From Curtobacterium flaccumfaciens pv. betae (lineage in GTDB: Bacteria > Actinomycetota > Actinomycetes > Actinomycetales > Microbacteriaceae), in assembly GCF_026241855.1 (NCBI RefSeq), contig NZ_JAPJDC010000001.1, positions 2,294,001-2,358,000 on the forward strand: a stretch of 64,000 bases of DNA, in the 5' to 3' direction. The position numbers and the translations under genes were made by a program. Under the pieces are notes generated by a model. That model did no database searches. It saw nothing but the letters and a program-made list of their open reading frames with translations, and had not been told where the DNA came from. This document shows positions 53,548-55,463 of the stretch, piece by piece. Position 1 is the stretch's first letter, and every line of letters begins with the position of its first letter.

Positions 53548-54474
53548 CTACGCGGTCTCGAGCGCGGCCTCGGCGTCGGCGAGGGCGGCACGCTCGGCGT
53601 CGGACAGTGACGCCCGTGCGCCCCGGACGCCGTCGTTGATCTCGACGATGCGGCGGCTGAGCCGGGTCGCGGGGTCGTCGGTCGGCGGGTAGGCGTTGTC
53701 CACCCCGATCCGTTCGTGCAGCGGCGCCAGGCGGCGCAGCGCATCGTCCACGCGGCGGGCCCGGCGCCGGCGGGAGATCCGGTGTCCGACGACGAGCAGC
53801 AGCATGCCGGACGCCACGCACAGCACGGCTCCCGGCGTGGTGACGTCGTAGGGCAGCGAGAGCGCGTGCGTGACGTCGAGGTCACCGGCGACGTGGGCGA
53901 CGTCCATCACGACGACCACGACCATGCGGACGACCCCGAGCACCCCACCGAGGACCAGGACCCACAGCCCCACCAGGTCGGTGGTCGTCCGGGCTTCGCG
54001 GAGCCGGAGCACGCAGATGAACCCCGTCGCGCCGAGAGCGACTCCGAGGTAGACGGTCTGCGCGATCGAGTAGACGGTGGCCGCCGGGTGGGAGCCGGCG
54101 TCGAGCATGAAGGTCGTCGTGGTCGCGGGCTTGTCGAGCACGGTGAACGCGACGACGACCACCACGACGACCACGACGAAGGACACCACGACCGCGTTCC
54201 GGAGCCAGGGCCGCGCAGCACCGACCGCCTTCGCCACGCCCCACAGCAGCGTGCTCGTGCCGGCCACCATGAGGCAGTCGCTGACGACGGTCACGACGTT
54301 GTACCCGCCGAGCAGCGGGTCGAGCCACCGGTACAGCGGGTCGACGTTCGTCACGATGGTGGCGGCGAAGAGCAGGAACGTGAACGCCAGCGTGCGGTCC
54401 TGCCCGCGTTGCAGGACCAGCAGCACGATCGTCCCGACGATGAGCAGCACCGCCTGGACGACGGCGATGATCAC
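53548..54474 (-). CDS. MAB_1171c-family putative membrane transporter/sensor (DUF6545-like)
   Basis: 308 aa from GTG (GTGA overlap with the protease gene). About seven membrane segments fill residues 1-225 (for example VIIAVVQAVLLIVGTIVLLVL and AVVVSFVVVVVVVVVAFTVL), followed by a cytoplasmic tail (about 235-308) with RRVDDALRRLAPLHERIG and RRIVEINDGVRGARASLSD. That tail looks like the DUF6545 domain of MAB_1171c proteins. The 7-segment plus cytoplasmic-domain layout is as compatible with a receptor as with a transporter. It is the third gene of a coupled regulator-protease-membrane trio. Confidence 0.78.
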   Translation of the reverse strand: MIIAVVQAVLLIVGTIVLLVLQRGQDRTLAFTFLLFAATIVTNVDPLYRWLDPLLGGYNVVTVVSDCLMVAGTSTLLWGVAKAVGAARPWLRNAVVVSFVVVVVVVVVAFTVLDKPATTTTFMLDAGSHPAATVYSIAQTVYLGVALGATGFICVLRLREARTTTDLVGLWVLVLGGVLGVVRMVVVVVMDVAHVAGDLDVTHALSLPYDVTTPGAVLCVASGMLLLVVGHRISRRRRARRVDDALRRLAPLHERIGVDNAYPPTDDPATRLSRRIVEINDGVRGARASLSDAERAALADAEAALETA

Positions 54475-54932
54475 CCGAAGACCCCTCGGAAGGCGCTCGG
54501 GCGGCCGCGGTGCTGGCGGATCACCGTGGCCAGGCGGTCGGCGAAGACCTCGGCCTCGTGCTCGTAGGTGTTCGAGAACATGCCCCGGGCCAGCGCACGC
54601 TCGACCTTGTACTCGGGCAGGTCGGGGACGACGTCGCGGATGTACGCGCTCTGCGGGGCGTGCTCCTGGTGCCGGTGCAGGACGTGCCCGAGCTCGTGGC
54701 CGATGACGAACGACCGGAACGTCGGCGAGGCCGTCGGCGAGATCATCACGAGGTGCGCGTGCTCGAGCGTGGCCACGAAGCCGCACACGGGCTCGGCGGC
54801 CAGGAACGACTCCTCGCGCACCACGATCGGCTTGCCGACGACGTCAGCGGCGGCGGCGACGGCCTGGTCGACGTCCGACCACCCCTCGGCGGCACCACGA
54901 GCCCAGAACGCCTCGACGAGGGCGTCGGTCAT
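54471..54932 (-). CDS. ImmA/IrrE-type metallopeptidase
   Basis: 153 aa, coupled to the gene before (ATGA) and after (GTGA). The zinc site is HELGH at 79-83 (SFVIGHELGHVLHRH), with downstream acidic residues in YEHEAEVFADRLATVI (about 123-138) giving the third ligand, as in this family. Relatives cut DNA-binding repressors: ImmA cleaves ImmR of ICEBs1, and IrrE/PprI cleaves DdrO in Deinococcus. The neighbouring XRE-type regulator is therefore the natural substrate candidate. No signal peptide, so it acts in the cytoplasm. Confidence 0.88.
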   Translation of the reverse strand: MTDALVEAFWARGAAEGWSDVDQAVAAAADVVGKPIVVREESFLAAEPVCGFVATLEHAHLVMISPTASPTFRSFVIGHELGHVLHRHQEHAPQSAYIRDVVPDLPEYKVERALARGMFSNTYEHEAEVFADRLATVIRQHRGRPSAFRGVFG

Positions 54933-55369
54933 GCGACACTCCCCCGCTGCGATTCCTCCTCGAGCACCTCGGCGATGCGCCGCAGCGCGTCGGGTGAGAG
55001 TTCACCGGGGAAGGTCCGGGCCGCGAAGCCGCTCACGCGGGCGGAGCGCAGGGACCGGACGAGGGCGAGCTGGGCACCGATCCGTTCCGGTACCTCGCTG
55101 TCCTCGAGCAGGAAGCGTTCGTCGACCTCGAAGTACCCGGCCAGCAGGCGCAGGAGCTCGGTGTCGCGGTTGCGGCGGCCGTCGCCGGAGAGCATGTACG
55201 TCCACTTCGCCCGGGACAGCGACCCACCGTGGGCCGCGACGTACTCCTCGATCGAGGAGAACGGCACCGGGGCGCCACGCTGGGACTCCTCGAAGTCGAG
55301 GAGCAGGTTGAGGCGGCGCGCGAGCTCGGCGGCGTCGAGCGCCCCGCCCTTCAGATCACCCGTGTCCAT
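54929..55369 (-). CDS. XRE-family, EspR-like transcriptional regulator
   Basis: 146 aa from ATG with GGAGGAG 7 nt upstream. An N-terminal helix (AELARRLNLLLDFE) leads to a helix-turn-helix (about 40-85: SIEEYVAAHGGSLSRAKWTYMLSGDGRRNRDTELLRLLAGYF) and a C-terminal helical dimer domain (PERIGAQLALVRSLRSARV, LSPDALRRIAEVLEEE). The arrangement is like mycobacterial EspR. It is the first gene of the trio and divergent from the IMPACT-family gene. Its own -10 may be TAGCAT (55426-55431 on the minus strand). Confidence 0.85.
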   Translation of the reverse strand: MDTGDLKGGALDAAELARRLNLLLDFEESQRGAPVPFSSIEEYVAAHGGSLSRAKWTYMLSGDGRRNRDTELLRLLAGYFEVDERFLLEDSEVPERIGAQLALVRSLRSARVSGFAARTFPGELSPDALRRIAEVLEEESQRGSVA

Positions 55370-55457
55370 GTCGGACTCCTCCCCAGCCGTGTCCGCGCGA
55401 GGTGTGGGTCCGGCGCGTGGACGCCATGCTAGCGCGGGCGCCCGCCACGCGCGCCGC

Positions 55458-55463
55458 TACCCT
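55458..55463 (+). promoter_or_regulatory. -10 box (TACCCT), leaderless
   Basis: TACCCT with 7 nt to the ATG of the IMPACT-family gene. Confidence 0.45.

Follow-up and report, generated by a model that had tools for sequence, protein, structure and literature searches.

What joins a putative DNA-binding regulator, a metalloprotease and a polytopic membrane protein whose genes overlap one another in Curtobacterium flaccumfaciens pv. betae? The locus lies in a stretch of 64,000 nucleotides (contig NZ_JAPJDC010000001.1, positions 2,294,001 to 2,358,000; "the window," to whose numbering the paired coordinates below refer) of a 3.78-Mb genome. According to the list of open reading frames (ORFs) of the window, all three genes are on the minus strand: an EspR-type regulator (54929..55369; 146 amino acids, ATG start), an M78 (ImmA/IrrE-type) metalloprotease (54471..54932; 153 amino acids, ATG start), and a seven-helix, MAB_1171c-related membrane protein (53548..54474; 308 amino acids, GTG start). 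A 412-amino-acid ORF over the membrane gene is the same frame, merely extended upstream. An earlier reading made from the letters alone (hereafter the sequence-only reading) had given the genes these identities, which were borne out by an EspR profile match, by the Pfam M78 model and by the relationship to MAB_1171c, respectively. The trio probably constitutes a single membrane-to-gene signal path (probability roughly 0.6), in which a membrane sensor would gate a protease that cuts the EspR-type regulator, as judged by analogy with characterized protease/repressor switches. Directly observed are the nature of each gene, the conservation of the zinc ligands, the coupling of the genes, the joint presence or loss of the protease and the membrane gene within the genus, and the EspR-type regulator as their frequent partner.

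No Pfam or NCBIfam model matched the regulator, and the match of the single sequence to SNF2 in the PDB (E 0.57) was rejected as chance. Its identity was resolved by a profile of 13 sequences (the window protein, proteins from Curtobacterium and one from Arthrobacter, and other homologues) from which mycobacterial EspR was left out: the top PDB matches were four EspR sequences (E 1.2e-9 to 1.3e-8), the best of them spanning positions 8–141, i.e., both the helix-turn-helix (HTH) and the C-terminal domain. The regulator thus belongs to the EspR family by homology over both domains, and the earlier label "EspR/XRE-like" fits the protein as a whole. In the predicted model (mean predicted local distance difference test [pLDDT] 77.8, only ∼60–65 in the C-terminal part), a helical HTH domain (residues 13–88) is followed by a two-helix C-terminal domain (residues 95–142); EspR chains fill Foldseek ranks 1–11, none of them reaching E 0.001, and DdrO and the N-terminal domain of CapH occupy ranks 21 and 22. 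EspR bridges DNA as a dimer of dimers. The most conserved stretch of the C-terminal part comprises the end of its first helix and the loop before the second, FAARTFPGEL (54998..55027, minus strand; residues 115–124), which is the predicted cut region; A116, R118, and G122 are identical in 25 of 25 aligned sequences, including mycobacterial EspR.

The protease scores 25 bits against the Pfam M78 model (PF06114; gathering score 22), and its relatives are mostly named "ImmA/IrrE family metallo-endopeptidase" in their source records, a few M48. As a single sequence it had no match in the PDB, and PHROGs gave only one weak metalloprotease match. The zinc motif HELGH (54684..54698, minus strand; residues 79–83) is intact, as had been claimed. 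H79, E80, and H83 are invariant in all 132 aligned proteases, which is partly circular because these are the proteins labeled by our own model, whose seeds were picked by HExxH. The same does not hold for E124 (54561..54563, minus strand), which is present in 132 of 132 sequences without having been used to pick seeds; as a candidate third ligand, it may bind zinc.

For the membrane protein, the predicted model contains seven helices (mean pLDDT 82, predicted template-modeling score [pTM] 0.73), and the charge rule places the N-terminus outside and the C-terminus inside, with a tail of ∼75 residues in the cytoplasm, as the sequence-only reading had it. In model and charges, this is the topology of a G-protein-coupled receptor (GPCR), i.e., seven helices, N outside, C inside. 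The first outside loop (54298..54348, minus strand; residues 43–59), a candidate signal site, is the outside loop with the most residues common to the window's clade and mycobacteria (N43, P46, L47, D52, and N59), and asparagine at position 59 occurs in 80% of 51 diverse members. The cytoplasmic tail (53551..53778, minus strand; residues 233–308), where the protease might make contact, carries R271 in 78% and D281 in 92% of the same members. Matches to ATP-synthase epsilon (best E 0.005) were judged chance. A run of GAC/CAC triplets on the plus strand (54130–54190) corresponds to a nearly pure valine helix of this protein.

The three genes overlap by four bases at both junctions, as had been noted: ATGA between regulator and protease (54929..54932, minus strand) and GTGA between protease and membrane gene (54471..54474, minus strand). 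With starts set by our own gene caller, the former is kept in 31 of 31 loci (30 from the same genus plus the window; locus L005 repeats the window locus, leaving 30 distinct ones) and the latter in 27 of 31; in the four exceptions, the two genes are separated by 13, 31, 55, and 55 bases. Because four-base overlaps recur to this extent at both junctions, they are not due to chance; they may fix the ratio of the products, as the sequence-only reading proposed. Of the homologues that carry a name, those nearest to the membrane protein come from Curtobacterium (98% to one from C. flaccumfaciens). The window's membrane protein matched 58 of 149 relatives, all from the same genus (in 4 of the 58, only by a diverged copy), and had no match in 61 other genera sampled. 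Among 63 same-genus genomes, the window-type protease and membrane gene were both present in 54 and both absent in 9, and the window-type regulator was found in the 54 plus two others; the window-type protease without the regulator was encountered in none of the 63. The window's own genome contains a second, diverged trio in the same order at ∼173.3–177.1 kb of the same contig (L004; L096 2910–5776), the regulator being 40% and the membrane protein 26% identical to that of the window trio; an alpha/beta-hydrolase-like gene (below the Pfam cut-off) overlaps its membrane gene by four bases. A third protease (HELGH; no Pfam match by itself) at ∼3061.4–3062.8 kb (L164 3079–4451) is directly followed by a 301-amino-acid membrane protein, and no EspR-type regulator was called within ∼4 kb.

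Beyond the genus, the NCBIfam MAB_1171c model had matches in 27 of the 296 genomes searched within the phylum (over the cut-off in 12), with up to six copies per genome. Thirty-two loci were read after the nine weakest matches had been left out. A protease of the trio's kind was found in 25, directly upstream of the membrane gene (gap of at most 151 bases) in 23 of these, and an EspR-type label in 16 (7 above 90 bits; 2 without a protease). Of 27 weaker matches in the same family, 11 were read with 4-kb flanks and 21 with 1.5-kb flanks (the latter are given below); all of the 11 contained a regulator, an HExxH protease, and a downstream membrane gene (either labeled or with five to seven helices). 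In three surveyed distant loci, the neighboring gene is EspR itself (one was tested: E 1e-68 to PDB entries). A scan for EspR loci found 303, of which the best-scoring 80 were named and therefore lean towards relatives of the mycobacterial query; in 79 of these 80, EspR is convergent with the membrane–protease pair, which overlaps by exactly four bases in all 79, and in the remaining one the sequence ends 5 bases past the EspR match. In three loci of one distant genus with large genomes (L072, L081, and L082), a single protease is followed by two membrane proteins in tandem, and the neighborhood of loci in this genus often includes FAD oxidoreductase-like genes (uncounted; two checked by Pfam).

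The module also occurs on plasmids, mostly of Arthrobacter and kin and of Curtobacterium, where 11 records had a relative of the membrane protein and 61 a relative of the regulator. Fifteen loci were read (3 of the 11 membrane-centered and 12 of the 61 regulator-centered), 14 of which hold a regulator, an HExxH protease, and a multi-helix gene (11 of 12 among the regulator-centered; in 2 of the 14, the multi-helix gene was left unlabeled by our model). The names given to these partners by the annotators are ImmA/IrrE, EspR, and MAB_1171c. Ten of the 14 complete modules include or adjoin a gene that annotation or Pfam assigns to a small-molecule enzyme: an alpha/beta hydrolase, an MpaB/DUF2236 oxygenase (the DUF2236 enzyme had no Pfam match in our own scan), or a geranylgeranyl-reductase-like FAD enzyme, which is encoded on the opposite strand. 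Such an arrangement fits a neighboring enzyme that makes or destroys a hydrophobic ligand; no gene of this kind adjoins the window's own unit. Plasmid loci L293 (2821–3414) and L297 (2821–3399) have one more gene, for a small multi-helix protein, which separates the membrane gene from that of the regulator; in L297 its product weakly matches MauE. The trio is kept as a unit in the genus, in mycobacteria, and on plasmids, so that the lack of conservation which the sequence-only reading had named as refuting it was looked for and not observed. Its gene order and its overlaps, however, hold strictly just in the vicinity of the window.

In the proposed path, the seven-helix protein would sense something outside the cell and, via its inside tail, switch on the neighboring M78 protease; the latter would cut the C-terminal domain of the regulator in the conserved loop at about residues 115–124, and the cut regulator would release its target promoters, thereby ending repression. 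Cleavage at this loop and control by the tail are suggested by the XRE-type partners on which the M78 systems studied so far act, by the conservation of the loop, and by the predicted inside position of the tail. The evolutionary distances of the three proteins correlate at 0.92–0.94 over 37 modules of our own choosing (plasmid loci L291, L293, and L295 were dropped for a missing label) and at 0.79–0.91 within 16 Micrococcales modules, with none of 2000 permutations reaching the observed value.

Several findings weigh against this path, most of them with respect to the regulator. Irrespective of the order of the genes, it is the protease–membrane pair that forms the firm core, and the regulator is a frequent partner, because the latter is convergent in mycobacteria, stands first or last on plasmids, or is unrecognizable. 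This last situation was met in 16 of the 32 distant loci, all from one genus with 6- to 10-Mb genomes (g65, which we take to be Streptomyces), and 7 of the 32 are without a protease call; in the 21 distant loci for which only 1.5-kb flanks were read, 18 carried the protease label and 11 the regulator label. As half of the distant loci are unlabeled and only seven labels exceed 90 bits, the regulator may not be the general target of the protease, although the missing regulators may also be too diverged for our model. Conversely, the regulator persists where the pair is gone. Two same-genus genomes (G010 and G060) retain the regulator between its usual neighbors but have lost the protease and the membrane gene (L176 3974–4435 and L177 3995–4435; one of these regulators has a longer C-terminus), and one plasmid locus consists of the regulator alone. 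Among 198 mycobacterial genomes, EspR is present in 196 and the membrane protein in 118; of the 80 that lack a membrane match, 20 were read, and each has an intact EspR with nothing of the pair seen within 1.5 kb. M. tuberculosis presumably lacks the pair as well, judging from its gene order. One of the 20 (L284 1468–2421) has a separate EspR-like gene directly followed by a protease, with a membrane-protein match downstream. The orphan regulators and the excess of EspR over the membrane protein indicate that the regulator works without cleavage, which fits a regulator that is active when uncut; cleavage is then not essential. A change of the cut site upon loss of the pair was sought, and both chromosomal orphans keep the loop unchanged, which lends it no support. 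Also, the distance correlation drops to 0.43–0.49 among distant pairs, and host ancestry explains part of the agreement, the comparison having been run without an unrelated gene pair as control.

Could the protease then target the membrane protein or something else, the regulator being solely an autoregulator of the operon? The pairs without a recognized EspR-type regulator, common in the large-genome genus, and the tightness of the protease–membrane distance link (r 0.91–0.94, the closest of all) speak for this view. On the other hand, an EspR-type gene recurs beside the pair in rearranged orders, the absent regulators are possibly just too diverged to be labeled, and the characterized M78 systems IrrE–DdrO, CapP–CapH, and ImmA–ImmR act on an XRE-type partner in the accessible parts of PMC10904395 and PMC2701414, which together make this alternative improbable. 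A little less credit still is given to the view that the membrane protein is a transporter that regulator and protease merely control. The NCBIfam family is indeed named "putative transporter," and in the one paper found to mention MAB_1171c, its knockout in M. abscessus had biofilm reduced to roughly half and figures among the minimum inhibitory concentration mutants, the authors treating the protein as a transporter; yet that name rests on no transport assay in the accessible text of the same study (PMC8707978). Because the window protein scores 81.5 bits against that model (NF042915), below the curated cut-off of 100, it was filed as a relative rather than a member of the family, a point that also counts against the proposed path. 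Pfam matched no transporter family, and seven helices with the N-terminus outside and receptor-like best matches in Foldseek do not suggest one, although the best E of these matches is only 0.028 and helical bundles often score high, so that a receptor-like fold is weakly indicated by the model; no known bacterial sensor family was prominent among the fold matches, which is not evidence of absence. Least probable is a toxin–antitoxin pair of the XRE/COG2856 type (protease as toxin, regulator as antitoxin) with the membrane gene as passenger. XRE plus COG2856 has been proposed as toxin–antitoxin (PMC2701414, in the part available), and the module also occurs on plasmids, in two loci close to ParA- or ParB-type genes. 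However, the window module sits on a chromosome and is found in the majority of the genomes of the genus, phage records yielded no match to the membrane protein or to the regulator (the protease was not searched there), and the membrane gene is no passenger because it comes and goes with the protease. Two genomes retain the regulator after loss of the protease, and none of the 63 has the window-type protease without the regulator, which is not decisive, since an addiction pair would allow the same. The available part of the 2009 survey excluded membrane-protein/XRE pairs from toxin–antitoxin systems (PMC2701414).

The path from membrane sensor to regulator is retained as the preferred interpretation. 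A more far-reaching version of it is tentative and, as a whole, unlikely: a widespread actinobacterial three-part class, in which a GPCR-like seven-helix receptor activates a protease and the latter destroys an EspR-type regulator, often with an enzyme that makes or removes a hydrophobic ligand, would serve as a contact or quorum switch on plasmids, and mycobacterial EspR would be the regulator arm left without receptor and protease where the pair was lost.

A YigZ/IMPACT-type gene adjoins the regulator upstream in divergent orientation, and downstream of the trio a 70-amino-acid ORF is followed by an apparent response regulator and sensor kinase (as read from their sequences). In the promoter region shared with the YigZ-type gene, an inverted pair, CGCTANC...GGTAGCG (55428..55461), is kept across the 29 upstream regions that aligned out of 33 tried, with the locus of the window included two times. 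It may be an operator, or its halves may serve as −10 boxes for two divergent promoters; as both can be read from it equally well, no regulon was predicted from the search for a common operator in front of the regulator gene.

How new is the proposed arrangement? The sequence-only reading had offered it as its best candidate for a new system, a fair label insofar as no description of the trio, no mention of DUF6545, and no link between EspR and a protease was found in the open literature (subscription papers and preprints lie outside it); protease/XRE-repressor pairs as such, by contrast, are well known. If the proposed path is true, a dedicated membrane partner is added to switches whose best-studied activator, single-stranded DNA, is intracellular (PMC10904395, in its accessible parts). 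For EspR, in turn, many mycobacterial genomes supply a conserved pair of partner genes, and what turns EspR off becomes testable. A new class of signal is suggested by the plasmid copies that lie next to genes for small-molecule enzymes.

Compared with known systems, the trio resembles IrrE/PprI–DdrO of Deinococcus in combining an M78 protease with an XRE-type repressor that has a C-terminal dimer domain, DdrO also being a lower-ranked fold match of the regulator. IrrE carries further domains, whereas the window protease has only 153 residues. DdrO is cut by IrrE/PprI in a loop of its C-terminal domain, and activation is by single-stranded DNA, no membrane partner being described in the accessible parts of the source (PMC10904395). 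Activation by zinc or redox is reported elsewhere. In PADLOC, the protease is matched by capP at E 7.5e-8 and the regulator, weakly, by capH at E 0.009, other PADLOC models giving no strong match for any of the three window proteins. CapP–CapH differs in that it controls a phage-defense operon (CBASS), and to our knowledge has no membrane partner. CapP cuts CapH upon triggering by single-stranded DNA (PMC10904395, accessible parts). The ImmA–ImmR pair differs from the trio in being part of a mobile element, ICEBs1. We know of no dedicated membrane sensor in that system. Like the other two, it comprises an M78 protease, which is needed to inactivate an XRE repressor (PMC2701414, in the part available). 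Mycobacterial EspR is a full-length homologue of the window regulator, its gene adjoining the same pair in nearly all of the best 80 of 303 loci, and differs in being known as an ESX-1-linked, nucleoid-associated regulator (by its PDB names). The proposed path as such is paralleled by BlaR1–BlaI and MecR1–MecI, in which membrane sensing leads to cleavage of a repressor by a metalloprotease; BlaR1 and MecR1 unite sensor and protease in one protein, whereas the trio would split them over separate genes.
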